A DNA stretch of 64,000 nt from positions 4,932,001 through 4,996,000 of the forward strand of contig NZ_JARUBO010000005.1 of assembly GCF_029626235.1 (NCBI RefSeq), in the 5' to 3' direction. Of this stretch, positions 17,323 through 62,236 are shown piece after piece; the first letter of the stretch is position 1; each line of letters begins with the position of its first letter. The position numbers were made by a program, and so were the translations under genes. The notes below the pieces were generated by a model that saw only the letters and a list, made by a program, of their open reading frames with translations, was not told where the DNA came from and ran no database searches. The stretch is from Micromonospora sp. WMMD1120. Its GTDB lineage: Bacteria; Actinomycetota; Actinomycetes; Mycobacteriales; Micromonosporaceae.

Positions 17323-17373
17323 CGCTGTTCGAGGTCGGCATGCCTGCCCGCCCATCTACACGTCGACGATCCG

Positions 17374-17540: not shown

Positions 17541-17549
17541 TCGCGAAAC

Positions 17550-17693: not shown

Positions 17694-20690
17694 ATGTCAG
17701 ACCTGACCCGACGGCAAGCCCTCAAGGTCGGCGCGGCCGGTGCGGGCGGCGCTCTCCTGCCGCTGCCCTGGACGGCCGCGGCCCGAGCGGACGCCACGGC
17801 CCCGCCGCAGGTGCTGGCCGCCGGGGACATGGCGCTCTGGTATGACGAGGGCGCCGGCACCGACTGGCTGCGGGCGCTCCCGATCGGCAACGGCCGGCTC
17901 GGCGCCATGGTCTTCGGCAACGTCGACACGGAGCGTCTCCAGCTCAACGAGGACACGGTCTGGGCCGGCGGTCCGCACGATCCGAGCAACCCTCGGGGCG
18001 CGGCGGCGCTGCCGGAGATCCGGCGGTTGGTCAACGCCAACCAGTGGACCCAGGCCCAGGATCTGATCAATCAGACCATGATGGGCAACCCGGGCGGCCA
18101 GCTCGCCTACCAGACGGTCGGCAACATCCGGCTCGCCTTCGGCTCCGCCAGCGGGGCCTCCCAGTACGACCGGACGCTCGACCTCACCACCGCCACCGTC
18201 ACGACCTCGTACGTACTCAATGGCGTGCGCTACCAGCGTGAGGTGTTCGCCAGCGCGCCGGACCAGGTCATCGCGATGCGACTGACCGCGGACCGCGGCA
18301 ACTCGATCAGCTTCACCGCCACCTTCGACAGCCCGCAGCGGACGACAGTGTCCAGCCCGGACGGCAGCACCATCGGCCTCGACGGCGTGTCCGGAAACCA
18401 GGAGGGCGTCACCGGGGCGGTCCGCTTCCTCGCCCTGGCCAACGCCACCATCAGCGGTGGGTCGGTGTCCAGCTCCGGTGGCACCCTGCGGGTCACCAAC
18501 GCCACGAGCGTCGTCTTGTTGATCTCCATCGGGTCCAGCTACGTCAACTACCGCAACGTCGGCGGCGACTACGGGGGCATCGCGCGGCAGCGCCTCAGCG
18601 CCGCCCGGGCCAGCAGTTTCGACCAACTGCGCAGCCGGCACGTCGCCGACTACCAGGCGTTGTTCAACCGGGTGACGCTGGATCTGGGCCGCACCTCCGC
18701 CGCCAACCAGACGACCGACGTCCGGATCGCCCAGCACAACAGCGTCAACGACCCGCAGTTCTCGGCGCTGCTGTTCCAGTTCGGCCGTTACCTGCTGATC
18801 TCGTCGTCACGGCCGGGCACCCAGCCGGCGAACCTCCAGGGCATCTGGAACGACTCGCTGACCCCGTCCTGGGATTCGAAGTACACGATCAACGCGAACC
18901 TGCCGATGAACTACTGGCCGGCCAACACCACGAACCTGGCCGAGTGCCACAACCCGGTGTTCGACATGGTCCGGGAGCTGTCGGTCGCCGGTGCCCGCAC
19001 CGCCCAGCTCCAGTACAACGCCGGCGGCTGGGTCACCCACCACAACACCGACGCGTGGCGGGCCACCGCCGTCGTCGACGGCGCGTTCTGGGGCATGTGG
19101 CAGACCGGTGGCGCCTGGCTGTCCACCCTGATCTGGGACCACTACCTGTTCAACGGGGACATCGAGTTCCTCCGCACGAACTATCCGGCCATGAAGGGCG
19201 CCGCCCAGTTCTTCCTGGACACCCTGGTCACCGAGCCGACCCTCGGCTACCTGGTGACCAACCCGTCGAACTCGCCGGAGCTGAGCCACCACGCGAACGC
19301 CAGCGTGTGCGCCGGCCCCACCATGGACAACCAGATCCTGCGCGACCTCTTCGACGGCGTCGCCCGGGCCAGCGAGATCCTCAACGTGGACAGCACCTTC
19401 CGGGCCCAGGTCCGCGCCACCCGGGACCGGCTCCCCCCGATGAAGGTCGGCTCGCGCGGCAACATCATGGAATGGCTCTACGACTGGGTGGAGACCGAGC
19501 CCAACCACCGGCACATCTCCCACCTGTACGGGCTCGCGCCCAGCAACCAGATCACCAAGCGCGGCACCCCACAGCTGTTCGAGGCTGCCCGTCGGACCCT
19601 GGCGTTGCGCGGCGACGACGGGACGGGCTGGTCGCTGGCCTGGAAAATCAACTTCTGGGCGCGGATGGAGGAGGGCAAGCGGGCCCACGACCTGATCCGC
19701 TACCTCGCCACCACCGCCCGGCTCGCGCCGAACATGTTCGACCTGCACCCGCCGTTCCAGATCGACGGCAACTTCGGCGCCACCGCGGGCATCGCCGAGA
19801 TGCTGCTCCAGAGCCACACCGGTGAGCTGCACATCCTGCCCGCCCTGCCGCCGGCCTGGCCGAGCGGTAAGGTGACCGGCCTGCGGGGTCGCGGCGGGCA
19901 CACCGTCAGCATCACCTGGAGCAACGGTCAGGCCACCGAGGTGCTCGTCCGGCCGGACCGTGCCGGCGCCGTCCGCCTGCGGGCCCGGATCCTCACCGGA
20001 ACCGTCACCGTGGTCGACACCGCCGACGGTTCGTCGCCCCGGGTCACCCGGATCGAGTCCGACCTGATCGAGGTCGCGGTGCAGGCCGGCCGCACCTACC
20101 GGGTCACCAGCACGGGCGTCGCCACGCCGACGCTGGAGCAGAGCTTCACCAACGCCGGCATCACCAACGACACCAACACCAACGTCGGCAACTTCGACGG
20201 CAACGGGGCCAGCCTCTCCGCGCAGGCCCTGGCGGCGGCCGGCGCCAGTCCGGGCGGCACGGTGAGCCGCAACGGGGTGAACTTCCGCTGGCCCAACGTC
20301 AGCCCCGGCACCGCCGACAACGCCGTCGCCTCCGGCCAGACCATCGGCATCAGCGGCACCGGCAGCACGCTCGGCTTCCTGCTGACCGGGACCTATGGGG
20401 CCGTCTCCGGAACCGGCACCGTGGTGTACGCCGACGGCACCCGGCAGACGTTCACGCTCAGCTCGCCCGACTGGTACGGCGGGCCGCACTCCGGTGGCAC
20501 CGCCGCCATCGTGTCCGCGTACCAGAACCGGCCGAACAACGCCCGCCAGGCCACGGCCGCCTGCATCTACTACGTGGGGGTGTCGTTGCAGAACAAGGCG
20601 GTCGCCCAGGTCGTGTTGCCGAACGTCAGCGCACGACCGGCCGCCAACGTACCGACGATGCACATCTTCGCCATCGCGATCGGGGGCTGA
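17694..20690 (+). CDS. Tat-exported GH95 alpha-L-fucosidase with C-terminal accessory domain
   Basis: 998 residues from ATG with GGAGGA 5 nt upstream. The Tat signal is TRRQALKVG. The GH95 N-terminal domain starts at MALWYDEGAGTDWLRALPIGNG, and RLQLNEDTVWAGGP is a family hallmark. The catalytic (alpha/alpha)6 barrel includes GIWNDSLTPSWDSKYTINAN, HHNTDAWR, RHISHLYGL and DGNFGATAGIAEMLLQS, which cover the conserved Asn/Asp/Glu active-site positions of inverting GH95 enzymes. From about residue 830 a beta-sandwich (VGNFDGNGASLSAQAL ... IYYVGVSLQNKAV) forms an extra carbohydrate-binding-like domain. It removes terminal alpha-linked fucose or L-galactose from plant or host glycans; L-galactosyl side chains of xylan are a plausible substrate here (inference). 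Confidence 0.93.
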   Translation: MSDLTRRQALKVGAAGAGGALLPLPWTAAARADATAPPQVLAAGDMALWYDEGAGTDWLRALPIGNGRLGAMVFGNVDTERLQLNEDTVWAGGPHDPSNPRGAAALPEIRRLVNANQWTQAQDLINQTMMGNPGGQLAYQTVGNIRLAFGSASGASQYDRTLDLTTATVTTSYVLNGVRYQREVFASAPDQVIAMRLTADRGNSISFTATFDSPQRTTVSSPDGSTIGLDGVSGNQEGVTGAVRFLALANATISGGSVSSSGGTLRVTNATSVVLLISIGSSYVNYRNVGGDYGGIARQRLSAARASSFDQLRSRHVADYQALFNRVTLDLGRTSAANQTTDVRIAQHNSVNDPQFSALLFQFGRYLLISSSRPGTQPANLQGIWNDSLTPSWDSKYTINANLPMNYWPANTTNLAECHNPVFDMVRELSVAGARTAQLQYNAGGWVTHHNTDAWRATAVVDGAFWGMWQTGGAWLSTLIWDHYLFNGDIEFLRTNYPAMKGAAQFFLDTLVTEPTLGYLVTNPSNSPELSHHANASVCAGPTMDNQILRDLFDGVARASEILNVDSTFRAQVRATRDRLPPMKVGSRGNIMEWLYDWVETEPNHRHISHLYGLAPSNQITKRGTPQLFEAARRTLALRGDDGTGWSLAWKINFWARMEEGKRAHDLIRYLATTARLAPNMFDLHPPFQIDGNFGATAGIAEMLLQSHTGELHILPALPPAWPSGKVTGLRGRGGHTVSITWSNGQATEVLVRPDRAGAVRLRARILTGTVTVVDTADGSSPRVTRIESDLIEVAVQAGRTYRVTSTGVATPTLEQSFTNAGITNDTNTNVGNFDGNGASLSAQALAAAGASPGGTVSRNGVNFRWPNVSPGTADNAVASGQTIGISGTGSTLGFLLTGTYGAVSGTGTVVYADGTRQTFTLSSPDWYGGPHSGGTAAIVSAYQNRPNNARQATAACIYYVGVSLQNKAVAQVVLPNVSARPAANVPTMHIFAIAIGG

Positions 20691-20719
20691 CCGCGGCGGA
20701 TACCGCACACGGTGGGAGG

Positions 20720-20755
20720 CGATCGGGCCCGTCCCCGAGGGGACGGGCCCGATCG
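20720..20755. terminator. bidirectional terminator between GH95 and GH67
   Basis: Perfect 17-bp inverted repeat (CGATCGGGCCCGTCCCC and its complement) around a 2-nt centre. It lies 30 bp from the end of the plus-strand gene and 4 bp from the end of the minus-strand gene. Confidence 0.85.
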
Positions 20756-20758
20756 TGC

Positions 20759-23700
20759 CTACCGCTGACGGATGTGCTCACCCCGGCTCGCGATCCGGAA
20801 GTGGTCGAAGGCGACGTCGAGATCGGTGGACGTGCCGGCCCTGTTGAACGCCAGCAGCCCCGCCTTCGTCGCCTCCGCGGTGAGCGTCGTCGAGCCGATG
20901 AAGCGCCAGACGCTGCCGTCGCTGGAGTAGTAGGCGCGGTAGCTGTCACCGATCTTGGTCAGGCGCAGCCAGATGGCGCCGTCGGCCCCGACGATCCGCT
21001 GCGCGTCCGCCCCGGTGATCTCCAGTGTCGACGTGGCGCCGTTCTGTTCGCGGAGGAAGACGACGCGGGTCCTGTTGACGGGCGCTGTCGCGTTGCCCAT
21101 CTCCCAGGCCAGCTTGACGTAGTTGTCGTCGTCCGCGTACCCGAGGATGCCACCCTGCTCGTTGTTGCCGGCGAGGGGACGGGAGAAGACGATCCTGGTG
21201 TCGGCCGTCCAGTCGCCGTCGACGTCCTGGAGCGCCAGGTTCCGCGCGGTGTTGGTGCCGCCCTGCAGGTCGCCCTGCTGCGCCGTGACGACCAGGGACC
21301 CGTCGGCCAGCCGCCACCTGCTGTCGTCCGGCCGCACCCACTGCCACTGCGGGCCGAGGGAGCCCGAGGTGAAGTCGTCGCTGCCGGTGAGGGTGGTGTT
21401 CAGGTCCACCGTGTAGACGGTCGACGCCGCGCCGTTCGTGACGGTGACCCGTGCCTGTCCGGTGGCGCTCGTGGGCTGCTCGACGGAGACCGCGGCGGCC
21501 GGATCGGCGGCGCTGGCGGTGACCGCCGGCACCGTCGTCGTCCCGGCCGGCACGAGGACGTTGTAGTGCGGCACCGACGGCGTGAACGTCGCCAACGGCG
21601 CGTCGTCGACGCGTAGCGCCGCCAGCGTCGTGTCCGGCACCAGGTTGAAGACGTAGTTCTTCACCAGCGGCCCGAAGAAGCCCTTCGTGGTGACCTTGAC
21701 GATCGCCTGTCCGGGCACACCGGCCGCCTGGGAGATGATCTGGTAGCGGGCCTTCCGGTCGGCCGTCCGCACCGCCGTGATGGTCGGCGACGCCCCGGCC
21801 GGCACCGGGATCGTGTACGAGGCGTCCGACAGGTTGAAGCCGCCGTACTCCCTGCCGTTCACCACAATGGTGGCGGAGAGCGGCGCGTCGTCGACCGGAA
21901 CCTCCCGCCCGCTGAACTCCTTCCAGTAGTTGACCGAGGTGTCCCGCCAGTCGGCCGCGTCCGCCTCGTGGACGGCCAGCTTGGCGCGTACCTCAGCGAA
22001 CCGGCGCGCGTCGATGTCGGGTCGCAGCGTCTCCCAGGTCTCCCGCATCCACGTCACGTACTGCACGCCCATCTGGTAGCGGTAGACCAGCTCGTCCCAG
22101 AACGTCCGCCCGCTGTCCATCCGGTGGCCCCACGGCACGTGGTGGAACCACATCAGCAGGTTCTCCGGGACCGAGTCGATGTCGCCGTAGCGCCGCTGCA
22201 ACCGGGGGAAGTACTGGGCGGCCAGATTGCTGCCGGTGGGGGAGCGGTCGAAGCCGAGGCCGACGCTGTCGGCCTTGTTGTAGTAGATCGGGCTCCAGTC
22301 GTCGCGGCCCGCCCAGTCGGCGGGGTCGGGCCGGTAGTGGGCGCCCTCCGCGAACTGGTGGCCGATGCCCAACGGGGTCTGGTAGCTGACCAGCGACTCC
22401 CACGAGCCCATCATCATCGACCGGATGGTGTCGACGACACGCCTGTCGTTGCTCCAGGTCATCCGGACCCAGTCGGTCGCGATGTCGGCCGCGTCGAGCG
22501 TCCAGTCCCACGCCTGACGGCCGAAGGCGAAGAGGTTCGCCTGGGAGAAGTGGTGCCCGGTCAGGTTGTCGGCGTTGCCGAGGTTGGCGACGCCGACGAT
22601 CGCGGTGTCCGTGTGGTGCTGGGCGCTGCCGTCGACGATGTCGCCGACCAGGCGCTCGCGCAGCAGCTTCCCGTTGGCGTCGGTCGCGTACGTGTCGGTC
22701 TTGAGGACCTCCTCGTACATCGGGCCGAGGTAGGCGAGCATCCAGTTCTGGCCCGTGTACTCCTGCGTGATCTGGAGTTCCAGGGCCTGGTTGGTGTTCT
22801 CCATCCGGCCGAACATGGGATGGACGGGCTCCCGGGCCTGGAAGTCCAGCGGCCCGTTCTTCGTCTGCAGGAACACGTTGTCGGCGAAGCGCCCCCGGCT
22901 GCCATCCGGTTGGACCTCGTCGTCGATCGGCCCGAACTCCAGGTAGGCGCGCTTGAGCCGGTCGTTGTCGACCTCGGCGTTGTAGACGAACGTCCGCCAG
23001 TGCACCGTCATCCCGAGGGGCGCCACCGCGGCGGCGATGGCGTTGGCCCCGTCACCGTGGTCGTACCCGAAGTCCTGGGGACCGGGCTGGCCCTCCGAGT
23101 TGGCCTTGACGGTGAGACCCATGAAGTCCGGGATGGCGGCCTGGATCTGCTGGGCCCGACGCTGCCACCAGCCGCGGAAGTCGGCGCCGTACGGGTCGAG
23201 TTGGCTGTTGGTCAGGGTGTCCGGCGCGAAGCGACTGTCGGTCGGCGCCGTGTAGCGGATCGACAGCCCCAGCCTGATGCCGTACGGGCGCAGAGCGTCG
23301 GCGAGCGCGGCCTCCTGCGCGATGCGCGCGCTCGTCAGGTACGCGTTGTCGGCGTTGACGTTGTTGATGGTGATGCCGTTGATCCCCAGGGACGCCAGCG
23401 CGCGGGCCATGACCAGGTAGCGGTCCAGGATGACGGGCAGGTTCCGCCCGGCGCTGGCCCCGGTCGCGGCGAAGTTGAAGATGGCCCCGCTCTCCCCGTT
23501 CAACCCGCCCAGCCCGGTGGCGTTGTTGCCGGCGTAGAGCCGCTCGGTCTCCCAGTTGTTCAGCAACCGGTGCTTGATCTTCGGTGACTCGGCGACGCGG
23601 AGGTGGTCGACGGGTTTCTGGGTCTGCATGCGCCGCAGGAAGGCGAAGGTCCCGTACAGGGCGCCGAGGTCGGTGTTGCCGGCGATGACGGTGAACCGTG

Positions 23701-24223
23701 CCCTCCCTCGGGACACCGTGCGGACGAGGTAGCCCTCGTCGCCGACCCGGGCCAGGTCACGCGCCGGCACGGCCCGGCCCACCAGCGGTGAGCTCGCCGG
23801 AGTGCCCACCACCACCGCGCCGTCCGGGACCCGGTCGCCGTCGACTGTCGTCACCGGTGTCGGTTGGCCGAGCAGACCACCCAGGCCGCGGACCAGTTCG
23901 TCCCGGGCGGCGCCCAGTGTCGTCTCGGCGAGCCTCTCCCGGGACCCGGGCGCCATGGCGAGGTCGGTGGTGTGCCGGTGGACCTTCGTGGCGTCGGCGT
24001 TCTCCACCACGATGGCCGAGGCGGCCCGGCGGTAGTCCCGCAGCAGTTTCGCGTCGCTGACCGGCACGTAGCGCAGCCACAGGTCGGAGCCGCTGTAGTC
24101 GTCCGGCGACCCGGCCGCCGCGACGGGGGCCGTGGCGACCGTGAGGGTGGCCGCGACGGTGGCGAGCGCCGTGCCCAGCACGATCAGTGTTCGTCGTAGC
24201 CTCGGCACCGAACGTCGGTTCAT
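20759..24223 (-). CDS. secreted GH67 alpha-glucuronidase with C-terminal ConA-like domain
   Basis: 1154 residues, ATG behind GAGGAGA. A Sec signal ends near residue 37. The GH67 core runs from SDLWLRYVPV through SPKIKHRLLNNWE, LASLGINGITINNVNA and NSEGQPGP (acid Glu near 375) to FLQTKNGPLDFQAREP (Asp and Glu of the base pair, about 458-463), then QITQEYTGQNWM and FHHVPWGHRM. Residues about 790-940 hold two Ig-like segments, and 945-1154 form a concanavalin-like sandwich of the DUF1349 or xylosidase-C kind. GH67 removes 4-O-methyl-glucuronic acid from the reducing-distal end of xylo-oligomers. Most GH67 enzymes are intracellular and about 700 residues, so export and the 400-residue extension are unusual. 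An operator of the local LacI type sits 110 bp upstream. Confidence 0.92.
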   Translation of the reverse strand: MNRRSVPRLRRTLIVLGTALATVAATLTVATAPVAAAGSPDDYSGSDLWLRYVPVSDAKLLRDYRRAASAIVVENADATKVHRHTTDLAMAPGSRERLAETTLGAARDELVRGLGGLLGQPTPVTTVDGDRVPDGAVVVGTPASSPLVGRAVPARDLARVGDEGYLVRTVSRGRARFTVIAGNTDLGALYGTFAFLRRMQTQKPVDHLRVAESPKIKHRLLNNWETERLYAGNNATGLGGLNGESGAIFNFAATGASAGRNLPVILDRYLVMARALASLGINGITINNVNADNAYLTSARIAQEAALADALRPYGIRLGLSIRYTAPTDSRFAPDTLTNSQLDPYGADFRGWWQRRAQQIQAAIPDFMGLTVKANSEGQPGPQDFGYDHGDGANAIAAAVAPLGMTVHWRTFVYNAEVDNDRLKRAYLEFGPIDDEVQPDGSRGRFADNVFLQTKNGPLDFQAREPVHPMFGRMENTNQALELQITQEYTGQNWMLAYLGPMYEEVLKTDTYATDANGKLLRERLVGDIVDGSAQHHTDTAIVGVANLGNADNLTGHHFSQANLFAFGRQAWDWTLDAADIATDWVRMTWSNDRRVVDTIRSMMMGSWESLVSYQTPLGIGHQFAEGAHYRPDPADWAGRDDWSPIYYNKADSVGLGFDRSPTGSNLAAQYFPRLQRRYGDIDSVPENLLMWFHHVPWGHRMDSGRTFWDELVYRYQMGVQYVTWMRETWETLRPDIDARRFAEVRAKLAVHEADAADWRDTSVNYWKEFSGREVPVDDAPLSATIVVNGREYGGFNLSDASYTIPVPAGASPTITAVRTADRKARYQIISQAAGVPGQAIVKVTTKGFFGPLVKNYVFNLVPDTTLAALRVDDAPLATFTPSVPHYNVLVPAGTTTVPAVTASAADPAAAVSVEQPTSATGQARVTVTNGAASTVYTVDLNTTLTGSDDFTSGSLGPQWQWVRPDDSRWRLADGSLVVTAQQGDLQGGTNTARNLALQDVDGDWTADTRIVFSRPLAGNNEQGGILGYADDDNYVKLAWEMGNATAPVNRTRVVFLREQNGATSTLEITGADAQRIVGADGAIWLRLTKIGDSYRAYYSSDGSVWRFIGSTTLTAEATKAGLLAFNRAGTSTDLDVAFDHFRIASRGEHIRQR

Positions 24224-35149: not shown

Positions 35150-35587
35150 ATGCGTAAGGCATTCATGATCAGCAGCGGCCTGTTGCTCACGGCGTACGCC
35201 CTCCAGTTCGTGTTCGCCGCCATGGGCGGGTTCACGAAACCCGCCGGCGACGACGCGTACACCCTGCACAGCGTCAACGGCATGGCGGTCATCCCGGCCC
35301 TCAGCCTGCTCACCGTCCTGTTCGCGGCCCTGGCGAAGGCGCCCGGCCGGCTGGTCGGGCTGGCGACCCTCCCGCTCGGCCTGGTCGTTCTCCAGCCGGT
35401 CCTCGCCATGCTCGCCAACGGGTCCGCCGACGCCACCGGCGCCAGCACGCCCCTCGGGTTGGTCATCGGTGGGCTGCACGCGCTCAACGGGATCGTCGCG
35501 GTGCACGTCGTGGCCGCCGTCATGCGGGGAGTGGGTCGGTTGAGCAGCGACGCTCCGGCGGCCGTCCGGGAAGAGGCCCCGGCGTGA
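35150..35587 (+). CDS. small 4-TM membrane protein (DUF6220-like)
   Basis: 145 residues with four hydrophobic helices: MISSGLLLTAYALQFVFAAMG, VIPALSLLTVLFAALA, LVGLATLPLGLVVLQPVLAML and ALNGIVAVHVVAAVM. Conserved-looking His residues sit at the helix ends (LHSVNG in the first half, GLHALNG in the second), which is the pattern of small DUF6220 or cytochrome-b-like proteins that could hold a haem. Its stop overlaps the start of the multicopper oxidase (GTGA), so the two products are probably made in step and may interact. Confidence 0.75.
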   Translation: MRKAFMISSGLLLTAYALQFVFAAMGGFTKPAGDDAYTLHSVNGMAVIPALSLLTVLFAALAKAPGRLVGLATLPLGLVVLQPVLAMLANGSADATGASTPLGLVIGGLHALNGIVAVHVVAAVMRGVGRLSSDAPAAVREEAPA

Positions 35588-37326
35588 GCACCGGATCGCT
35601 GCTCGTGGGAGACCTGCTGCTGACGATCCTCGCCGCCGGTGGGTGGTTGGGAGGCGGCGCCGCGGCGGCCGTCCGCCGTCGGGGGCTCGCCCGGGGCCTG
35701 GCGGCCCTCGGGCTGCTCGCCACGCTCGCCCGCGCGATCACCATCGCCGCTCTCGCCCGCGCCGGCTGGTGGTTCGCCGCCGAGAAGGTCCTGATCGCCG
35801 CGCCGCTGTCCCTCGTCGCGGTGGTCGTCGCGGGGCCGCGGGCGCTGCGGCCCCCGGGCGACATCCGGGCCGTCGCGGTCGGGCTCCTGTTCGCCGGGTA
35901 CGCCACGAGCGCCGGCCTGCTCGTCACGGTCCTGCACGGCTACCCGGCGTCGGCGGGCACGGGACTGCTGGCGGTGGCCGGCGTCGTCGCCGCGACTGTC
36001 GTGACGTGGCGCGCGCTCGGCGCACGGCCGCCCCGCGCGGCGTCCCGGGTCGCCGTCGCGGTAGTTGTGGTGGCGTTGGTGACCGGAACCGGCCTGACCG
36101 CCGCCGCGGGCGGACGTGCCCCGAGCGCGCCGCACGCGCACGACCACCCGGTGGACCGGATCGCCGCCGAACCCACCCGGCTGTTCACGCTCACCGCCGC
36201 GACCGCCACCGTACGCGTGAGCGGCCGGGACGTCGCGGCGTGGGCGTTCAACGGGCAGGTGCCCGGCCCGGAGCTGACCGCCACCGTCGGCGACGTCGTG
36301 CAGGTGACGCTGCGCAACCGGGACATCGGACGTGGCGTCACGCTGCACTGGCACGGGTACGACGTGCCGAACGGTCAGGACGGGGTGCCCGGCGTCACCC
36401 AGGCGGCGGTGCTGCCCGGCGAGGAGTTCGTCTACCGGTTCCGGGCCGAGCAGGCCGGGACGTACTGGTACCACACGCACTCGGTCTCCGACGTCGGCGT
36501 GCGCAGGGGTCTCTACGGGGTCCTGGTGGTGCGCCCGCAGCCGCCGACCGGCCTCGACCTCACGGTGCCCGTGCACACGCTGGCGGGCCTCGCGCTACCA
36601 CCGGCGCGCTCGGAGCAGGTCCGGGCCGGCGCGCCCGTACGGTTGCGTCTGATCAACACCGACAGCACCACCCACCGCTACGCCCTCGCCGGCACCGCGT
36701 TCCGGGTCGCCGCGATCGACGGCGTGGATCTGCGGGGGCCGACGCCGCTCGCGGACACCGCCGTGCTGATCCCGGCCGGAGGCCGCTACGACCTCGTGTT
36801 CGACGCGCCGCCCACACCGGTGGCGCTGCTCGTCGACGGACGGGTCGTCTTCTCGACCGGCCCGGTGTCCACCGCGACCGGGGACTGGCCGCTGCTGGAT
36901 CCGCTGCGCTACGGCGTGCCCGTCCCGGTGCCGTGGTCCCGGTACGACCGGAGGTTCACCCTCGTCCTGGACCGTGGTCTCGACCTGCGCGCCCTGGTGC
37001 CGCGCTACGCGCACACCGTCAACGGCGCGGCCGACAGGGACATCCCCCCGCAGGTCGTCCGCCTCGGCGACGTCGTCCGCTTCACGATCGTCAACCGGTC
37101 GCAGGTCGTCCACCCCTGGCACCTGCACGGTCACCACGTCCTGGTGCTGTCCCGTGACGGCGAGCCGGCGGCCGGCAGCCCGCTGTGGCTGGACTCGTTC
37201 GACGTCCGCCCCGGGGAGGTGTGGGAGGTGGCGTTCCGGGCCGACAACCCCGGGGTGTGGGCGAACCACTGCCACAACCTGGCGCACGCCGACGCCGGGA
37301 TGACGACGCACCTGATGTACTCGTGA
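35584..37326 (+). CDS. multicopper oxidase fused to a six-helix membrane domain
   Basis: 580 residues from GTG. Residues 5-175 contain about six TM helices (for example LLVGDLLLTILAAGGWL, VGLLFAGYATSAGLLVTVL, VAVAVVVVALVTGTGL), then an exported AHDH-rich linker. The cupredoxin part carries all four copper motifs: LHWHGYD, YWYHTHS, HPWHLHGHH and NHCHNLAHADAGM (the Met is the type-1 axial ligand). So the enzyme should be active, oxidising its substrate outside the cell and reducing O2 to water. Most bacterial multicopper oxidases have only a signal peptide, so the membrane domain is unusual. Last gene of the operon. Confidence 0.88.
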   Translation: MSTGSLLVGDLLLTILAAGGWLGGGAAAAVRRRGLARGLAALGLLATLARAITIAALARAGWWFAAEKVLIAAPLSLVAVVVAGPRALRPPGDIRAVAVGLLFAGYATSAGLLVTVLHGYPASAGTGLLAVAGVVAATVVTWRALGARPPRAASRVAVAVVVVALVTGTGLTAAAGGRAPSAPHAHDHPVDRIAAEPTRLFTLTAATATVRVSGRDVAAWAFNGQVPGPELTATVGDVVQVTLRNRDIGRGVTLHWHGYDVPNGQDGVPGVTQAAVLPGEEFVYRFRAEQAGTYWYHTHSVSDVGVRRGLYGVLVVRPQPPTGLDLTVPVHTLAGLALPPARSEQVRAGAPVRLRLINTDSTTHRYALAGTAFRVAAIDGVDLRGPTPLADTAVLIPAGGRYDLVFDAPPTPVALLVDGRVVFSTGPVSTATGDWPLLDPLRYGVPVPVPWSRYDRRFTLVLDRGLDLRALVPRYAHTVNGAADRDIPPQVVRLGDVVRFTIVNRSQVVHPWHLHGHHVLVLSRDGEPAAGSPLWLDSFDVRPGEVWEVAFRADNPGVWANHCHNLAHADAGMTTHLMYS

Positions 37327-48073: not shown

Positions 48074-50840
<2,767 letters not shown>

Positions 50841-54489: not shown

Positions 54490-54570
54490 TGTCTCCGTGT
54501 CAGCTCCATGTCAATCGACTGTCGTCGTGATGTCAAGGTAATCTTTCTGCAATCAGAGCTGTACTTTTGT

Positions 54571-54602
54571 CGATGGATTACATAAGTTGCTGTCATCCAT
54601 CG
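54571..54602. promoter_or_regulatory. inverted repeat upstream of the small laccase
   Basis: CGATGGAT and ATCCATCG, perfect 8-bp arms 16 nt apart, in the most AT-rich part of the 293-bp gap before the laccase operon (about 54510-54610). Arm spacing suits a dimeric regulator on neighbouring turns. The direct repeat ATGTCAA occurs twice just upstream (54509, 54532). Confidence 0.4.
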
Positions 54603-54728: not shown

Positions 54729-55733
54729 ATGGACGATCACGCCGTTGGCTCCCACCGCCACCTGTCCCGCCGATCACTGTTCGCCACCGGAGCGCTCGCC
54801 GCCGGGGCGATGGGCGCCGCCGCCCCGGCGATCGGCAGCGCCCTCGGAGGCAGCCCCGCCCGGGCCGCCGCGGGCGTCACCAAGAAGATCACCATCTACG
54901 CCGAGCAGTTGCCGGGCAACCTGTTCGGCTACGGCCTGGCGCCCGGCCAGGCCACCGTCCCCGGCCCGGTCCTCGAGATGTACGAGGGCGACACCCTGGA
55001 GATCACCCTGGTCAACACCACCGACCAGCGGCTGTCCATCCATCCGCACGGGGTGGACTACAGCACCGACTCCGACGGCAGCCCGTTCAACGCCTCGTTC
55101 AACAACCCCGGTGAGACACGGACGTACGTCTGGCGCTCGCACGAGATGGTGGCCGCCGCCGGCCGGCGGTACATGCCGGGCAGCGCGGGCTACTGGCACT
55201 ACCACGATCACGCGATGGGCACCGACCACGGCACCGCCGGCGTCGCCAAGGGCCTCTACGGCGCGCTGATCGTCCGGCGGCGCGGCGACATCCTGCCGTC
55301 GAAGCAGTTCACCGCCGTGTTCCACGACATGACGATCAACAACCGGATGGCTCCGGCGACCCCGATGTTCGAGGCCAACCTGGGCGAGCGCGTCGAGTGG
55401 ATCGCCATCGGCCACGGCAACCTGTTCCACACCTTCCACCTGCACGCGCACCGCTGGGCGGACAACCGCACCGGGATGCTGGAGGGGCCGAGCGACCCGA
55501 GCCTGGTCGTCGACAACAAGGACCTCAACCCGGGCAGCTCGTTCGGTTTCCAGGTGCTGGCCGGGGAGGGCGTCGGGCCCGGCGCGTGGATGTACCACTG
55601 CCACGTGCAGAGCCACTCCGACGGCGGCATGGCCGGCATCTTCCTGGTGCGCAACGCCGACGGCAGCATGCCGCCGGGCGCCGAGGAGGCGATCCACCGG
55701 TTCCAGGGCCACGCCCACACGCACGGAAGCTGA
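54729..55733 (+). CDS. Tat-exported two-domain small laccase (SLAC type)
   Basis: 334 residues from ATG 54729, GGAG upstream. Tat signal RHLSRRSLFATGA. The two cupredoxin domains carry all copper motifs: SIHPHGVDY, GYWHYHDHAMGT, FHTFHLHAHRW and YHCHVQSHSDGGM (type-1 Cys, His and the loop Met). These lie close to the Streptomyces coelicolor small laccase, which works as a trimer outside the cell and reduces O2 to water with broad electron donors. It heads a run of secreted redox proteins; the next gene begins 23 bp later. Confidence 0.95.
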   Translation: MDDHAVGSHRHLSRRSLFATGALAAGAMGAAAPAIGSALGGSPARAAAGVTKKITIYAEQLPGNLFGYGLAPGQATVPGPVLEMYEGDTLEITLVNTTDQRLSIHPHGVDYSTDSDGSPFNASFNNPGETRTYVWRSHEMVAAAGRRYMPGSAGYWHYHDHAMGTDHGTAGVAKGLYGALIVRRRGDILPSKQFTAVFHDMTINNRMAPATPMFEANLGERVEWIAIGHGNLFHTFHLHAHRWADNRTGMLEGPSDPSLVVDNKDLNPGSSFGFQVLAGEGVGPGAWMYHCHVQSHSDGGMAGIFLVRNADGSMPPGAEEAIHRFQGHAHTHGS

Positions 55734-55755
55734 CCGCACCGACAGTGGGGATCCG

Positions 55756-58700
55756 ATGATGAGAACACCACGACGAACTCTCGCCGCGATAGCGGCCCTC
55801 GTGACACTGCTGCCGGCGACGAGCGCGGCGGCGGCGCCCCGACCGGCGGCCGCCCCGCAGGCGGCACCGCCAGCCCGGACGGCGGTCCTCGTGTTCCACG
55901 GCCCGGCGGCCGAGCAGCAGGACCCGGTTTCGCGCGCCGTCGACACCATCCGACAGCTTGCCGCCGGTCATGACATCGATGTCACGGCCACCACCGACCC
56001 GGCCACGTTCACCGCGGCCGCACTGTCGGCGTACCGCAGCGTGGTCTTTCTCTCCGCGACGGGCGCCGCGCTCAACCGCGACCAGGAGTCGGCGCTGCAG
56101 AGCTACGTCAAGGCCGGCGGCGGCTTCGTCGGCATCGCCGACGCGGCCCGCGCGCAGGTCGACTCCACCTGGTTCACCGGCCTGATCGGCGCCCGCCCGG
56201 CGGGCGCCATCCCGGTGGCCGAGCCGGTGGCGAAGGTGACCGCCAGCGGCGAGAACCCGCCGAACGAGACCAAGGAGAAGTTGACCGACGCGGACGCCAA
56301 CACCAAGTGGTTGGTCCGCACCCCGACCGCCTGGGTGGCCTACGAGCTGGCCGCCGCCAAGCGGGTGACCGGGTACGCCCTGACGTCGGCCAACGACTCC
56401 TCCGGCCGCGACCCGAAGGACTGGACCCTGCAGGGCTCCACGGACGGTCAGAGCTGGACCGATCTGGACAAGCGCACCGGCCAGACCTTCCCGGACCGGT
56501 TCCAGACCCGCCGGTTCGACATCGCCACCCCGCAGGAGTTCACCCGCTACCGCCTGAACATCACCGCCAACAGTGGAGAGCCGCTGACCCAGCTCGCCGA
56601 CCTGCGGCTGTTCACCGGCAGCACCACCGCCCCCGAACCGCCAGCGGTGAACCGCGCGGTGGTGAACATCCTGGACCGCAAGCACCCAGCCACCGCGTCG
56701 CTGCCGCTCACCCTGACCCGCTCCGACCGCTGGGAGAACTGGGACCCGAACCCGATCGGCAGCGTGCACACCCTCGCCCAGGTCGAGGAGCGGCACTACG
56801 ACGCGGGGGCGGGCGCCAACGGCGCGTTCCACCCGGTGTCCTGGTGCCGGGACTACGACGGGGGCCGGTCGTTCTACACCGGCATGGGTCACACCGAGGG
56901 CAGCTACGGCGAGGAGGCGTTCCGCGCGCACCTCGCCGGGGCGCTGAACTGGACCACCGGACGGGTACGCGGTGACTGCCAGGCCACCATCGCCGCCAAC
57001 TACAAGGTGGAGCGGCTCACCGCCGCCAACCAGACCGGGCAGCTCGACCAGATCGGCGAGCCGCACGGGCTCACCATCGCACCCGACGGCACCGTCTTCT
57101 ACGTCGGCAAGGCGGCCTGCCCGAGCGGCCCGATCGCGGACTGGACCAACCCGAAGGTCGGCCTGGGCTGCGGCACCATCCACTCCTGGGACCCGCGGAC
57201 CAAGCAGGTCAAACTGCTCACCACCCTGGAGGTGATGGGCAACCGGGGCAGCGGCTCCGAACTGGTGAAGAACGAGGAGGGTCTGCTCGGTATCGTGCCC
57301 GACCCGGCGTTCGCCGAGAACGGCTGGCTCTACGTCTACTGGATGCCGCACGAGTCGATCGACAGGGAGAAGCGGGTCGGGCAGCGGACCGTCTCCCGGT
57401 TCACCTACGACCGCCAGGCGCAGACCATCGACCAGGCCACCCGCAAGGACCTGCTGCGGTTCCCGGTGCAGATCCACAGCTGCTGCCACGCCGGCGGCGG
57501 CATGGCGTTCGACGCCAAGGGCAACCTCTACGTCGGCTCCGGGGACAACAACTCCTCGGAGGGGTCGCAGGGCTACTCCGGCAACAACTGGACCCAGGAG
57601 TACCAGGGCATCTCCTTCCAGGACGCCCGCCGTACGTCGGGGAACACCAACGACCTCGCCGGCAAGATCATCCGGATCCACCCGGAGCCGGACGGCACGT
57701 ACACCATCCCGGAGGGCAACCTGTTCCCGCCGGGCACCGAGAAGACCCGGCCGGAGATCTACGTGATGGGCGTGCGCAACATCGCCCGGCTCCAGATCGA
57801 CCCGGTGCACCAGTGGTTGACCGCCGGCTGGGTCGGCCCGGACGCCTCGTCGCCCAGCCCCACCCTGGGCCCGGCCAAGTACGAGACCGCCACCATCATC
57901 ACCTCGGCCGGCAACCAGGGCTGGCCGTACTGCATGGGCAACCGGCAGCCGTACCGGGACCGCAGCAGCACCGACGCGACGGTGCTGACCGGCTGGTACG
58001 ACTGCGACAACCTGAAGAACACCTCACCCCGCAACACCGGGCTGGTGGACATCCCGGCGGCCCGGGACAACATGATCTGGTATTCACCCGACGGCGGCGG
58101 CCCGGTCTTCCCGACGCGTACCGACGGCAGCGGCCTGCCCACCTACGTCGCCGCCGACGCCACCTACACCCAGCCGTACCTGCGCGGCGGCGGGCAGGCG
58201 ATCATGTCCGGCCCGACCTACCACCGGGAGCTGGTCGACACCACCAGCGGGGTGGCCTGGCCGGAGCACTGGGACGGCAAGTGGCTCATCGGCGACCAGT
58301 CGAACGCGTCCAACCGGGTCGCGGTCACCGTCGACCCCGCCGGCGTGCCGCAGGCCGCCCCACCGGTGTACGCCGAGTCGCTGCGGGCCATCATCCCGGG
58401 CGGCAACGGCGACACCCGTCTGCAGAGCTGGATGGACGCCAAGTTCGGCCCGGACGGGGCGCTCTACCTGCTGGACTACGGCGGCGGCTTCTTCAGCCTG
58501 CACCCCAACCAGAAGCTGATCCGGGTCACCTACACCGGCGGCGCGCCCACCCCGGCGCCGGCGGCCACCGCGGTCGCCGTACAGAACAAGCCGCTGACCA
58601 TCGCCTTCACCGGCGCCCGCTCCGGCGGGGTCAGCTACCGGTGGGAGTTCGGCGACGGCGCCACGTCGACCGAGGCGAACCCCCGGCACACGTACGCCGC

Positions 58701-59691
58701 CGTCGGCAGCTACACCGCGAAGCTGACCGTCACGTACGCCGACGGTGAGACGGCGACGGTGCCGACCGCGGTGACGGTGGGCTGCGCTGTGGCCGACGAC
58801 CGGGCGACCGTGTGGCTCGGTGACACCGACACCGGTGTGCCCAGTCGCGCGGTCGGGCAGGGCTGCACCGCCAACGACCTGATCGACGACGAGAGCACCT
58901 GGGCCGACCACGACGGATTCGTCCGGCACGTCACCGCGGTCGCCCGCGCGTTGCAGGACGACGACCTGCTGAGCAGCCGGGAGGCCGGCACGCTCACCCG
59001 GATGGCCGCCGCGTCCCCGATCGGCCGGGACGGGCACACCGGGTACGAGCCGCTCTTCGACGGCACCGCCGAGTCGCTGCTCGGCTGGCAACAGGCGCCG
59101 ACGGGATCGTTCGCCATCCAGCCGGACGGGTCGCTGCGGCCCAGTGGCGGTCTGGGGATGCTCTGGCACACCAGGGAACTGGGCGACTTCTCGCTGCGGT
59201 TGCAGTTCAAGGACATCGCGCCGGGCACCGGCCGGGCCAACACCGGCGTCTTCGTCCGGTTCCCGGACCTGCGAACCCCTCTGGAACAACGACCGCCGGG
59301 CAGTTGCGGCACTGTCGGCTCGGCGCGGACCTCCACCGCCTGGATGGCGATCTACTGCGGACACGAGATCCAGATCTACGACGGCGATAGCGGCGAGCCG
59401 CAGAAGACCGGGTCGGTCTACAACTTCGACCCGGTGCCGCTGGCCCAGGCCGGCGTGACGCCGAAGAACGAGTGGAACGACTACGAGATCCGCGTGGTCG
59501 GGCAGCACTACACGATGATCCGCAACGGAGTGGTGATCAACGAGTTCGACAACACGCCCGGCAAGCAGTCGTCGCGTGCCGGCGACCCGCCGACCGATCT
59601 GCGGCAGTTCCTGCGCGGCTTCATCGGTCTGCAGAACCACGGTGACAACGACCTGGCCGAGTTCCGCAACGTCCGCGTACGGGAACTCTAG
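55756..59691 (+). CDS. secreted ThuA / sugar-dehydrogenase / PKD / DUF1080 multidomain protein
   Basis: 1311 residues. A Sec signal precedes a ThuA-like glutaminase-fold domain that begins at about 40 (TAVLVFHGPAAEQQD, YVKAGGGFVGIADA), is split at 158-287 by an F5/8-type discoidin domain (KDWTLQGSTDGQSWTDLD, FTRYRLNITAN), and resumes to about 410 (WCRDYDGGRSFYTGMGHTEG). Next is a PQQ/sorbosone-type sugar-dehydrogenase propeller (417-930: GEPHGLTIAPDGTVFYVG, EEGLLGIVPDPAF, HAGGGMAFDAKGNLYVGSGD). A PKD domain follows (940-1008), then an unnamed 81-residue module (1010-1091), then a DUF1080 ConA-like domain (YEPLFDGTAESLLGW to the end). Likely an extracellular sugar oxidase/dehydrogenase with binding modules. 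No cofactor synthesis genes are nearby. Confidence 0.9.
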   Translation: MMRTPRRTLAAIAALVTLLPATSAAAAPRPAAAPQAAPPARTAVLVFHGPAAEQQDPVSRAVDTIRQLAAGHDIDVTATTDPATFTAAALSAYRSVVFLSATGAALNRDQESALQSYVKAGGGFVGIADAARAQVDSTWFTGLIGARPAGAIPVAEPVAKVTASGENPPNETKEKLTDADANTKWLVRTPTAWVAYELAAAKRVTGYALTSANDSSGRDPKDWTLQGSTDGQSWTDLDKRTGQTFPDRFQTRRFDIATPQEFTRYRLNITANSGEPLTQLADLRLFTGSTTAPEPPAVNRAVVNILDRKHPATASLPLTLTRSDRWENWDPNPIGSVHTLAQVEERHYDAGAGANGAFHPVSWCRDYDGGRSFYTGMGHTEGSYGEEAFRAHLAGALNWTTGRVRGDCQATIAANYKVERLTAANQTGQLDQIGEPHGLTIAPDGTVFYVGKAACPSGPIADWTNPKVGLGCGTIHSWDPRTKQVKLLTTLEVMGNRGSGSELVKNEEGLLGIVPDPAFAENGWLYVYWMPHESIDREKRVGQRTVSRFTYDRQAQTIDQATRKDLLRFPVQIHSCCHAGGGMAFDAKGNLYVGSGDNNSSEGSQGYSGNNWTQEYQGISFQDARRTSGNTNDLAGKIIRIHPEPDGTYTIPEGNLFPPGTEKTRPEIYVMGVRNIARLQIDPVHQWLTAGWVGPDASSPSPTLGPAKYETATIITSAGNQGWPYCMGNRQPYRDRSSTDATVLTGWYDCDNLKNTSPRNTGLVDIPAARDNMIWYSPDGGGPVFPTRTDGSGLPTYVAADATYTQPYLRGGGQAIMSGPTYHRELVDTTSGVAWPEHWDGKWLIGDQSNASNRVAVTVDPAGVPQAAPPVYAESLRAIIPGGNGDTRLQSWMDAKFGPDGALYLLDYGGGFFSLHPNQKLIRVTYTGGAPTPAPAATAVAVQNKPLTIAFTGARSGGVSYRWEFGDGATSTEANPRHTYAAVGSYTAKLTVTYADGETATVPTAVTVGCAVADDRATVWLGDTDTGVPSRAVGQGCTANDLIDDESTWADHDGFVRHVTAVARALQDDDLLSSREAGTLTRMAAASPIGRDGHTGYEPLFDGTAESLLGWQQAPTGSFAIQPDGSLRPSGGLGMLWHTRELGDFSLRLQFKDIAPGTGRANTGVFVRFPDLRTPLEQRPPGSCGTVGSARTSTAWMAIYCGHEIQIYDGDSGEPQKTGSVYNFDPVPLAQAGVTPKNEWNDYEIRVVGQHYTMIRNGVVINEFDNTPGKQSSRAGDPPTDLRQFLRGFIGLQNHGDNDLAEFRNVRVREL

Positions 59692-59699
59692 GAGTGACG

Positions 59700-61226
59700 A
59701 TGACCAGACGACTGACCGCCGCGTTGGCGGCGCTGCTGCTGACGGTGATCCCGTTGACAGCGCCGTCCGCCTCCGCCGCCCCCCGCGCCGAGGAACAGGT
59801 GCTGACCTGGACCGCCGACGACGACATCACCCGCTACAAGTCCGCGCCCACCACCGCCGTGGCCGGGGCGACCACGATCATCTGGGAGAACAGCGCGGCC
59901 ACCGGCAACACCACCGGCATGCCGCACACGCTGACCTTCGACACCAGCACCGAGGGCTACAACCACGACGTCACACTCAACATCCTGGCCAGCCCGTTCG
60001 ACGCCAGCAACGGCCGCCACCAGGCGACGGTCACCCTCACCCCGGGCCGGTACCGGTACTTCTGCTCGATCCCCGGCCACAGCCAGATGGTCGGCGAGCT
60101 GGTGGTGACCGACGGCGGCGGGGGCGGCGACACCACGCCGCCGACGGTCACCGCCACGGTGGCCGGTGACCAGGACCCCGACGGCAACTACCTCGGCGCG
60201 GCGACGGTGACCGTCACCGCCACCGACGCCGACTCGGGGGTGGAGACCGTCGAGTACCAGGTCGACGACACCAGCTTCACGCCGTACACCGCGCCGGTAC
60301 GGGTCACCGCGATCGGCGACCACTCGGTGCAGTTCCGCGCCACCGACGGGGCCGGTAACACCAGCGCGGTCGGGTCGGTGTCGTTCCGGATCGTCGAACC
60401 GGGGGAGGAGGACACCACCGCGCCGGAGGTCACCGCCGCGCTGGCCGGGGACCGCGACGGCGACGGCAACTACATCGGTACGGCCACCGCCACGTTGACC
60501 GCTACCGACAGCGGCTCCGGCGTCGCCACCGTCGAGTACTCGTTGGACGGGGCGGCCTTCACCGCGTACACGAACCCGGTCGTCGTGACCACTGTCGGGA
60601 TGCACATGCTGCACTACCGGGCCACCGACGTCGCCGGTAACACCTCGGCCGAACAGATGGCCCACTTCACCGTCGTCGCTCCACCGGCCGAGGACACCAC
60701 CCCGCCCACCGTCACCGCCACGGTGGCCGGTGACCGCAACGACGACGGCGCGTACGTCGGCGCGGCGACGGTGACCGTCACGGCCACCGACGCCGACTCG
60801 GGTGTGGCAACCGTCGAGTACGCGCTCGACACCGGCGCGTGGACCGCGTACACCGCGCCGGTCACCGTGCGCGCCACCGGGGCGCACACTCTGCGCTACC
60901 GGGCCACCGACACCGCCGGGAACGCCGCCGCCGAGCAGTCGACCACGTTCACGGTGGTGGCCGACGGCACCGACGCCTGCCCCGACTCGGACACCCGGGC
61001 CACTGTGGTCATCGACGGCGACGACACCGGGGTGGCCAACGTGGACACCGGCGACGGCTGCACCATCAACGATCTGATCGACGAACACGCCGACTACCCC
61101 GACCACGCCGCGTTCGTCCGGCACGTGGAGGCGGTCACCGCCGCGCTCCTGACCGGCGGCACGCTCGACCGACGGCAGCAGGGCGCCATCGTCCGGGCCG
61201 CGGCCCGATCGGACGTCGGCGCATGA
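59700..61226 (+). CDS. secreted cupredoxin with three Ig-like (OmpL47-type) repeats
   Basis: 508 residues; ATG 59700 fits the GGAG at 59691 better than GTG 59694. After the signal, residues 25-140 form a plastocyanin/azurin-like domain with type-1 copper ligands GMPHTLTF (His) and YFCSIPGHSQM (Cys, His, Met). Then come three 90-95-residue repeats, each starting DTTPP/DTTAP and containing SGVxTVEY and FRATD/YRATD-x-A-G-N. The C-terminal 81 residues (CPDSDTRATV ... RSDVG) match the module in the preceding protein. It sits 8 bp after that gene and could carry electrons from the dehydrogenase to the laccase (inference). Confidence 0.9.
   Translation: MTRRLTAALAALLLTVIPLTAPSASAAPRAEEQVLTWTADDDITRYKSAPTTAVAGATTIIWENSAATGNTTGMPHTLTFDTSTEGYNHDVTLNILASPFDASNGRHQATVTLTPGRYRYFCSIPGHSQMVGELVVTDGGGGGDTTPPTVTATVAGDQDPDGNYLGAATVTVTATDADSGVETVEYQVDDTSFTPYTAPVRVTAIGDHSVQFRATDGAGNTSAVGSVSFRIVEPGEEDTTAPEVTAALAGDRDGDGNYIGTATATLTATDSGSGVATVEYSLDGAAFTAYTNPVVVTTVGMHMLHYRATDVAGNTSAEQMAHFTVVAPPAEDTTPPTVTATVAGDRNDDGAYVGAATVTVTATDADSGVATVEYALDTGAWTAYTAPVTVRATGAHTLRYRATDTAGNAAAEQSTTFTVVADGTDACPDSDTRATVVIDGDDTGVANVDTGDGCTINDLIDEHADYPDHAAFVRHVEAVTAALLTGGTLDRRQQGAIVRAAARSDVGA
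60128..60970 (+). repeat. three in-frame tandem repeats of about 285 bp
   Basis: Units near 60128, 60414 and 60702 encode the Ig-like repeats. Units 1 and 3 share long identical DNA, such as the run encoding TVTATDADSG, so they look recently duplicated or converted. Confidence 0.8.
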
Positions 61227-61258
61227 GTCCTCGAACCTCACCGACAGGGAGTGCAACG

Positions 61259-62236
61259 ATGCCCGGACGTACCGTCGCCAAGCTGGCCACCGTGAGCGCC
61301 GTCATCGCGGCCTCGGTGCTGGCCGTGGCGCCCGCCGCTCACGCCGACCTGGTCACCCACTGTGTCGGCACCGGCGGCGCGGTGACAGTGCCCAACGACC
61401 TGCTCGTGCCGGCCGGCGAGTCCTGCGCGCTGACCGGCACCACGATCACCGGCAACGTCACCGTCGCCGCCGGCGGCAACCTGGTGGTCGACGGTGGCCG
61501 GATCAGCGGCGAGGTACGCGTCGCCGCGGACGGCTACCTCGACGCGACCGAGACGACTGTCGACGGTCAGGTGGTGCTCGCCGCCGGTGGGTACGGGATC
61601 TTCCTGAAGGACGCCCGCACCGGCACGGTCACCGTACGGCCGAAGGGCACCGCCACCATCGACAGCTTCCTGTTCGCCGAGGGGGCGACGGTCACCGGGC
61701 ACGTCACCGTCGACGCCGGTGAGGTCCGGCTCGACAACGGCACGCAGGTGCAGCGCAACCTCAGCAGCACCGGCACCTACTACACCGACCTGCACGACTC
61801 GTTCGTCGACGGGACGCTGTCGGTGCTCAACAGCGCCACCGGCAGCGTGGTGTGCGGCAGCGCGGTCCAGGGCCGGGCCACCTTCGCCGGCAACCTGGGC
61901 GGCGTGCAGCTCGGCCCGAACGGCGCTCTCGACAGCTGCGCCTCCGGCGGCTACTGGGGCGGGGACGTCAGCGTCACCAGCACCACCGGTGGTGTCACCG
62001 TCGACGACAACATCATCAACGGCCAGTTGGCGGTGACGTCCAACGACCCGGCCGCCCAGGTGGCCGCGAACAACCGGATCCGCGGCGGCGTGACCGGTGA
62101 CCAGGCGGCCCCGGCCGCCAACCGGGCGGCCCGGGTGGCCGCCCCGGACCGCGAGGAGGCCGGCGACGAGCGGGCCGAGGTCCGTCGTACCTCGGCGGTG
62201 CAGGAGGCCACCGAGGCGGGCGCCGCGAAGCTCTAG
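61259..62236 (+). CDS. secreted repetitive beta-solenoid-like protein
   Basis: 325 residues from ATG 61259, AGGGAG upstream. The signal ends at AHADLVTHC. The body is short beta-turn repeats of about 20 residues with alternating Val/Gly (TITGNVTVAAGGNLVVDGG, ISGEVRVAADGYLDATE, TVDGQVVLAAGGYG, TVTGHVTVDAG), as in right-handed solenoids or polymer-forming bactofilin-like proteins. Two Cys pairs occur (HCVG/SCAL, VCGS/SCAS). The charged tail (about 270-325) is disordered. It closes the secreted-redox run, 32 bp after the cupredoxin gene. Possible scaffold or adhesive (inference). Confidence 0.75.
   Translation: MPGRTVAKLATVSAVIAASVLAVAPAAHADLVTHCVGTGGAVTVPNDLLVPAGESCALTGTTITGNVTVAAGGNLVVDGGRISGEVRVAADGYLDATETTVDGQVVLAAGGYGIFLKDARTGTVTVRPKGTATIDSFLFAEGATVTGHVTVDAGEVRLDNGTQVQRNLSSTGTYYTDLHDSFVDGTLSVLNSATGSVVCGSAVQGRATFAGNLGGVQLGPNGALDSCASGGYWGGDVSVTSTTGGVTVDDNIINGQLAVTSNDPAAQVAANNRIRGGVTGDQAAPAANRAARVAAPDREEAGDERAEVRRTSAVQEATEAGAAKL

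Follow-up and report, generated by a model that had tools for sequence, protein, structure and literature searches.

What could bring a small laccase, a protein resembling sugar dehydrogenases and a type-1 cupredoxin, all of them secreted, into one row of genes? The question is posed by a locus of Micromonospora sp. WMMD1120 within a stretch of 64,000 nucleotides (contig NZ_JARUBO010000005.1, positions 4,932,001 to 4,996,000 of the forward strand), which we call the window. Four open reading frames (ORFs) lie there head to tail on the plus strand: P1 (54729–55733; 334 aa), a two-domain (small) laccase with a twin-arginine motif; P2 (55756–59691; 1311 aa), a secreted protein that combines ThuA, split by a discoidin (F5/8C) domain, with a GSDH propeller, a PKD domain, a module of ~80 aa and the DUF1080 domain (PF06439); P3 (59700–61226; 508 aa), a secreted type-1 cupredoxin with OmpL47-type Ig-like repeats and a module common with P2; and P4 (61259–62236; 325 aa), a secreted, predicted beta-helix protein. 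The coordinates, and the intergenic gaps of 22, 8 and 32 bp, had been given by an earlier reading of the letters alone (the sequence-only reading) and hold; its export signals on all four products were likewise recovered, as a twin-arginine motif in P1 and as signal peptides judged by eye in P2 to P4. The set would be transcribed as one operon. The answer to which we give about an even chance is O2-driven oxidation of glycosides outside the cell, in which electrons would pass from a glycoside to GSDH, on to the cupredoxin, then to the laccase and finally to O2, with cleavage of the 3-keto-glycoside.

The genes are conserved as a unit. Among 61 genomes (G000 and 60 relatives), matches to P1 (>200 bits), P2 (>2000 bits) and P3 (E < 1e-40) co-occur in an identical 15, while any multicopper-oxidase match to P1 is found in 39. 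All four genes stand in one row in nine of the 15. Six other genomes, and additionally G027, one of the nine, carry a divergent cluster composed of a cupredoxin protein with Ig and DUF1080 domains, a TIM barrel, a laccase (42–44% identical, tblastn) and a P2 protein (67–70%). The TIM barrel is present in five of the six divergent Micromonospora-type loci L031–L036 that are in one piece, and all six bear DUF1080 on both the GSDH and the cupredoxin protein; in G014 the parts are spread over three contigs.

When named genomes were scanned, the pattern matched 421 times (405 relatives); the best 80 loci, chosen by similarity to P2, were kept. They span Micromonospora, Actinoplanes and its kin, Saccharothrix, Kibdelosporangium, Amycolatopsis, Prauserella, Phytoactinopolyspora and Streptomyces. 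In 80/80 the laccase lies 5′ of P2 in the same orientation, with a largest gap of 981 nt. A cupredoxin is found in 79 loci: 77 have it downstream in that orientation, two from Streptomyces have it on the opposite strand, and L125 has none. P4 follows in 53/80, and an isomerase-like TIM barrel occurs in 14/80, in one case 2.3 kb away. Median gaps are 23, 30 and 30 nt, and overlaps of 4 nt, counted from predicted starts, occur at 13/80, 13/77 and 9/53 junctions. In one further record among them, labelled Rhodococcus rhodnii, the laccase and GSDH are nearest to those of Kibdelosporangium, a hint that the set may have been transferred as a unit, although the cupredoxin domain is nearest to Saccharothrix. 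Across 122 complete loci, mirror-tree correlations (r 0.70, 0.70 and 0.56; permutation maximum 0.22) are inflated by species kinship; they fit joint descent, and we do not use them as proof of interaction.

When the ORFs of 33 chosen loci, forming 11 groups, were clustered, the laccase and the P2 and cupredoxin families came out in 11/11. A wider conserved core was looked for and set aside: the only other families recurring in at least three of the 11 groups were an SDR-like oxidoreductase (6), a ROK-type regulator family (5), an ABC family (4), P4 (4), the TIM barrel (3) and apparent shadow ORFs. The SDR-like family, with one member per locus, is large and common. Five ORFs picked as likely regulators near the clusters belong to the ROK family.

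Presence in the class was followed in 246 genomes, with cut-offs of E ≤1e-40 for the two-domain laccase and E ≤1e-8 for the cupredoxin. Each was found in 39, and the genomes were identical. We examined 43 stretches around the laccase or cupredoxin of these 39: ThuA and GSDH lie within a few kb of the laccase in 38 of the 39 carriers, that of the window counted; the remaining carrier, G075, lacks GSDH in the stretches covered around its laccases. Linkage in 80/80 loci, together with identical presence in 39/246 genomes, rules out chance neighbours. The tightest link is that of the laccase with the cupredoxin, the dehydrogenase being their partner in this class. A lack of joint conservation would have told against the sequence-only reading, by its own criterion; the set is kept across several families of the class.

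Details of arrangement vary among the 43 class loci. In the Streptomyces-type form, the laccase diverges from ThuA-GSDH and cupredoxin-DUF1080, and a LacI regulator accompanies this form in eight loci. The DUF1080 domain has been exchanged between P2 and P3 proteins: 21/43 loci have it on the GSDH protein and 15/43 on the cupredoxin protein, and in L163 the contig ends before the domain. L136 and L177 hold a laccase alone, and L164, a short contig, a cupredoxin alone. The laccases of L135, L148 and L156 are tandem paralogues; in L148 and L156 a cupredoxin protein of ~460 aa and ROK-family regulators adjoin them.

P1 contains only two Cu-oxidase domains (PF07732 at residues 76–185 and PF07731 at 200–310), has a length within the range of about 300–350 aa expected of two-domain laccases, and in PDB matches a small laccase, 3t9w, with 446.7 bits and 9ix9 with 417.7 bits. 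The laccase of the Streptomyces fungicidicus cluster scores 652 bits with the chain of SLAC, the small laccase of Streptomyces coelicolor (3cg8), and 676 bits with PDB entry 5lhl. The copper ligands had been called intact, and alignments of the window with those of the 80 best loci that have the gene agree: the 12 ligand positions of the laccase type 1, type 2 and type 3 (T1/T2/T3) sites are identical in 81/81 rows and the four of the cupredoxin in 80/80. The positions were assigned after those of SLAC. The twin-arginine motif is found in 68/80 laccases, the misses being RR variants beyond the pattern or apparent start-site errors. P1 thus resembles SLAC in its two Cu-oxidase domains, complete ligands and twin-arginine motif. 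It differs in context, since SLAC has been studied as a phenol oxidase, and conserved cupredoxin and sugar-dehydrogenase partners go unmentioned in the portions of the literature seen among the matches listed.

The small laccases of Streptomyces have been widely studied; the available part of one account reports phenol oxidation by two-domain laccases in vitro and roles in the cell, long speculated upon, in lignocellulose degradation, pigmentation and morphogenesis (PMC7036934). The locus could accordingly serve attack on plant polymers, with the laccase oxidising phenols or lignin, the dehydrogenase using quinones or phenoxy radicals as acceptors and the cupredoxin as a side carrier. Besides the phenol oxidation and the speculated lignocellulose role (PMC7036934, as far as its accessible text goes), protocatechuate genes (pcaHGBD) a few genes away in an S. 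fungicidicus plasmid, and a peroxidase-family gene, GH67 and GH95 in the window, would suit such a role. We nevertheless hold it to be decidedly unlikely: it would work without a dedicated cupredoxin, yet laccase and cupredoxin co-occur 39/39, and no pca-like family is among those recurring in at least three of the 11 locus groups.

In P2, the Pfam ThuA match (184 bits) is interrupted by the discoidin domain, and a PKD match is also present. GSDH (PF07995) scores 70.4 bits against a cut-off of 25; the narrower TIGR03606 profile remains below its cut-off (39.8 vs 434.55 bits). The GSDH profile matches soluble quinoprotein glucose dehydrogenase (GDH) with E 3e-21, and His144, Arg228-Asn229 and Gly247-Pro248 of that enzyme, numbered along the aligned chain, face His578, Arg674-Asn675 and Gly705-Pro706 of P2, which are invariant in eight aligned P2 proteins. 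In quinoprotein GDH the histidine is catalytic, and the Arg-Asn and Gly-Pro pairs belong to the catalytic and calcium residues. The structure model of P2 (pLDDT, the predicted local confidence, 87.2) contains a beta-propeller, whose best Foldseek matches are dehydrogenases with pyrroloquinoline quinone (PQQ): 7cdy, 5min, 1c9u and 3das, each at probability 1.00, the last titled as a PQQ-bound sugar dehydrogenase of S. coelicolor with the same fold. Matches to the AA12 family (6i1q, 6i1t, 6h7t; E 2.4e-9 to 4.6e-9, template-modelling score 0.50–0.52 by target) come behind the bacterial GSDH.

Two further observations concern this protein type. Cys576-Cys577 stand directly before His578 (window 57481–57489 for the three residues) and are at least 90% conserved in 35 aligned GSDH domains, paralogues included; a vicinal disulfide near PQQ is familiar from methanol dehydrogenase, which for P2 serves as an analogy only. 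Elsewhere in the genome of the window, at L049, a ThuA-DUF1080 protein adjoins a protein with GSDH, CBM6 and ricin-lectin domains, and the surrounding 17 kb hold no laccase or cupredoxin match above 60 bits.

The C-terminal DUF1080 domain of P2 scores 113.2 bits and covers the whole PF06439 profile (1–187 of 187). The sequence-only reading had it hold the enzymes near polysaccharide, an idea that is outdated, as Pfam names PF06439 3-keto-disaccharide hydrolase. By its profile match, the domain of P2 belongs to a catalytic family rather than being just an anchor. According to the part of the source at hand, one member of the family, BT2157, hydrolyses 3-ketotrehalose, and another, adjoining a dehydrogenase, is proposed to be a 3′-ketolactose hydrolase of the periplasm (PMC9007349). 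A role as a binding module only was therefore set aside as the default, the family being named for catalysis (Pfam; PMC9007349, same part). Of the earlier interpretation, then, the grouping of the genes stands, upheld by conservation and presence pattern, and the anchoring role of DUF1080 falls to its catalytic family. Such a family would point to a sugar that is first oxidised at C3 and then has a bond cleaved, rather than to simple sugar oxidation near a polymer. DUF1080 with ThuA, the TIM barrels and the LacI and ROK regulators would likewise point to 3-keto-glycoside chemistry.

P3 passes the cupredoxin cut-off (PF00127, 24.8 vs 21.2 bits) and carries OmpL47-type repeats (NF047446) in three stretches (254 bits). 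The site that is identical in 80/80 rows is H76/C122/H127/M130; type-1 copper sites that transfer electrons use this His-Cys-His-Met set. A GTG at 59694 offers an alternative start. The P2 module, at about residues 1010–1090 (58783–59025, plus strand), recurs at the C-terminal end of P3 with 47% identity across 81 aa (E 2e-21, single comparison). P4 matches no family of Pfam or NCBIfam at E 0.01. Its model, a beta-helix with pLDDT 83.6, is accompanied by an alignment of 26 homologues and has no match in PDB below E 1e-3.

From these parts the proposed chain would run as follows. With PQQ and Ca2+ as its probable cofactors, the GSDH propeller of P2 would oxidise a sugar residue. The electrons would be taken up one by one by the type-1 cupredoxin P3 and handed to the laccase P1, which would leave the cell through twin-arginine export and reduce O2 to water. 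The sugar so oxidised would be the target of ThuA and DUF1080 of P2, most probably through cleavage of a 3-keto-glycoside, and the discoidin domain, PKD, Ig-like repeats, P2/P3 module and the beta-helix P4 may hold the parts together on a surface or polymer. Such a sugar-to-O2 chain is plausible because the set is conserved, laccase and cupredoxin are present in identical genomes and the catalytic motifs of GSDH are retained. Also in its favour are the exchange of DUF1080 between the P2 and P3 proteins, the LacI, ROK and TIM-barrel neighbours typical of sugar loci, and the cupredoxins of another type that adjoin laccases outside the class.

How far the pairing of laccase and cupredoxin extends was seen in a phylum sample of 346 genomes. 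The laccase is found in 15, seven of the class, with cupredoxin, and eight of other classes; the seven were already within the 246-genome sample and are no new replicate. A single weak cupredoxin match without laccase occurs in G527. The P3-type cupredoxin is no universal partner, the P3 query finding it in 0/8 laccase genomes outside the class. A different cupredoxin adjoins the laccase in six of the eight; five of these cupredoxins exceed the PF00127 cut-off, and the sixth, encoded on the opposite strand, was recognised by its motif. As for the remaining two genomes, the contig of one stops 85 nt past the laccase, and the other offers 1,187 nt without the scanned motif. In four of the five PF00127 cupredoxins (L178, L179, L182, L185) a right-handed beta-helix is part of the same protein, with the laccase 5′ of the fusion. 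These fusions are also over the Pfam NosD cut-off (29.8–43.8 vs 23.6 bits), and a generic beta-helix model outscores NosD in three of the four, being lower in L179. Laccase and cupredoxin thus look like an older pair, with the beta-helix as a recurring third element and the sugar dehydrogenase as the partner in this class.

The same fusions bear on a second alternative: the cupredoxin and the beta-helix would supply copper to the laccase, or keep it ready for that enzyme, and the sugar enzyme would share the regulon but serve a function of its own. NosD belongs to copper-enzyme maturation, and we grade this possibility up because the NosD matches of the out-of-class fusions pass the Pfam cut-off. 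It is also in keeping with the cupredoxin adjoining the laccase even without GSDH, and with SCO6710 of S. coelicolor, near SLAC (SCO6712), which the portion of a source available to us calls a glycosyl hydrolase and a putative target of repression by the copper sensor CsoR (PMC6414726). Going by gene numbers, two apart from SLAC, that partial description would fit the same gene order in S. coelicolor. Against copper loading, the electron-transfer set His-Cys-His-Met is identical in 80/80 rows, the generic model beats NosD in 3/4 fusions, P4 lacks a NosD match, and fusion of DUF1080 to the cupredoxin protein ties the cupredoxin to sugar chemistry. On balance we consider copper loading unlikely. 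P4 itself was tried as a NosD and rejected, as no NosD profile matches it (Pfam, E 0.01).

Several observations weigh against the sugar-to-O2 chain. Kinship among the genomes inflates all of our counts, and the 80 loci were selected by P2 similarity. No GSDH, ThuA or DUF1080 match lies in the 4–20 kb around the eight out-of-class laccases, and three class loci (L135, L148, L156) hold two laccases and a cupredoxin with no GSDH nearby; GSDH is therefore not the sole possible donor. Nor need DUF1080 act on keto sugars, since one member is described, in the part of the source seen, as an endo-xanthanase/lichenase (PMC9007349). A pqqE gene over the cut-off is absent in the genome of the window and in 36 of the 39 class carriers, so that either PQQ has to be supplied externally or GSDH uses a different cofactor. 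Finally, the GSDH fold of P2 also matches hedgehog-interacting protein, which is not known to be an enzyme.

The last two points would also suit a cofactor-free or sensing locus, where GSDH is a binding propeller, ThuA and DUF1080 modify sugar, and laccase and cupredoxin carry out redox work of their own at the cell surface. Such a locus is very unlikely in our judgement: a binding propeller is at odds with the invariance of His578, Arg674-Asn675 and Gly705-Pro706 in eight P2 proteins, which line up with catalytic and calcium residues of quinoprotein GDH, and with the PQQ-bound S. coelicolor sugar dehydrogenase of the same fold in PDB (3das). Within the sugar-to-O2 chain, a more specific version is tentative: the two-domain laccases of the class would naturally be terminal oxidases of a secreted chain resembling respiration, not phenol oxidases, with GSDH oxidising probably at C3 and DUF1080/ThuA cutting the 3-keto-glycoside. 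As part of this terminal-oxidase reading, the laccase-cupredoxin pair would be the older unit, with other classes using other donors.

No paper on this gene set is among the matches listed in the open-access literature, and the closest known systems resemble parts of it. The LacABC dehydrogenase works with a cytochrome c. In Caulobacter and Bacteroidota, as the accessible part of one source has it, a secreted sugar dehydrogenase (LacABC) adjoins a DUF1080 protein, for which 3-keto hydrolysis is proposed, with sugar epimerase genes nearby (PMC9007349). LacABC is placed in the periplasm, whereas here the GSDH propeller, cupredoxin and laccase would act outside a Gram-positive cell. CcPDH of Coprinopsis (AA12), an extracellular PQQ pyranose dehydrogenase, likewise has an electron carrier of its own, as well as a cellulose-binding module; its carrier, by contrast, is haem b in the same chain, a suggested acceptor is a lytic polysaccharide monooxygenase, and no dedicated laccase is mentioned in the portion of the source available (PMC4332668). 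The cluster can also be set beside two better-known arrangements. Electron transfer from a quinone-cofactor dehydrogenase to a type-1 copper protein is known from methylamine dehydrogenase with amicyanin and from quinoprotein alcohol dehydrogenase with azurin; those pairs end in the respiratory chain rather than in a secreted laccase. In the NosD/NosL copper maturation of nitrous oxide reductase, a beta-helix and a copper protein adjoin a copper enzyme, and the out-of-class fusions pass the NosD cut-off; here, however, the cupredoxin has a type-1 site and P4 is without a NosD match.

The cupredoxin tracking in 39/39 and the sugar dehydrogenase adjoining in 38/39 carriers make the question of what small laccases do, long a matter of speculation about morphogenesis, pigment and lignocellulose in the part of the literature consulted (PMC7036934), directly testable. 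If the chain operates as proposed, sugar oxidation outside a Gram-positive cell would be driven in a new way that needs no membrane respiratory chain, and the system would be a case of O2-driven, oxidation-first extracellular sugar cutting. It would also bring DUF1080 chemistry into actinobacterial polymer breakdown and supply natural electron partners for laccases and dehydrogenases in biofuel cells.

The borders of the cluster also carry signals. An unrelated ABC transporter lies 5′ of the laccase in the window. Alignment of the DNA 5′ of the laccase from the window and 14 relatives shows a conserved 30-base element, TGTACTTTTGTCGATGGATTACATAAGTTG (54560–54589, plus strand), with one match in the window and none in 100 shuffles; we infer that it is a promoter. 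With this element 5′ of it, the laccase is probably the first gene of the operon. The 15-base core (≤2 mismatches) occurs within 400 nt 5′ of the laccase in 35/80 loci, mainly of Micromonosporaceae, compared with three matches elsewhere in 3.8 million strand-bases of the 80 loci, and is absent (0/55) 5′ of the laccases in the class and divergent loci. At the other end, the single terminator reported earlier is only partly borne out: a very stable, terminator-like hairpin follows P4 (62242–62288, plus strand; –47.2 kcal/mol, z –4.2), and the T-run after it is lacking.

Three other regions of the window were noted. A second multicopper oxidase (35584–37323; 580 aa; PF07732 and PF07731) has weak kinship to P1, and such matches occur in many relatives. 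A few genes 5′ of the laccase cluster lies a KatG-like peroxidase-family gene (48384–50837) with PF00141 in two stretches. Positions 15404–24223 encode a trypsin with FG-GAP repeats, GH95 and GH67, possibly a region for plant polysaccharides.

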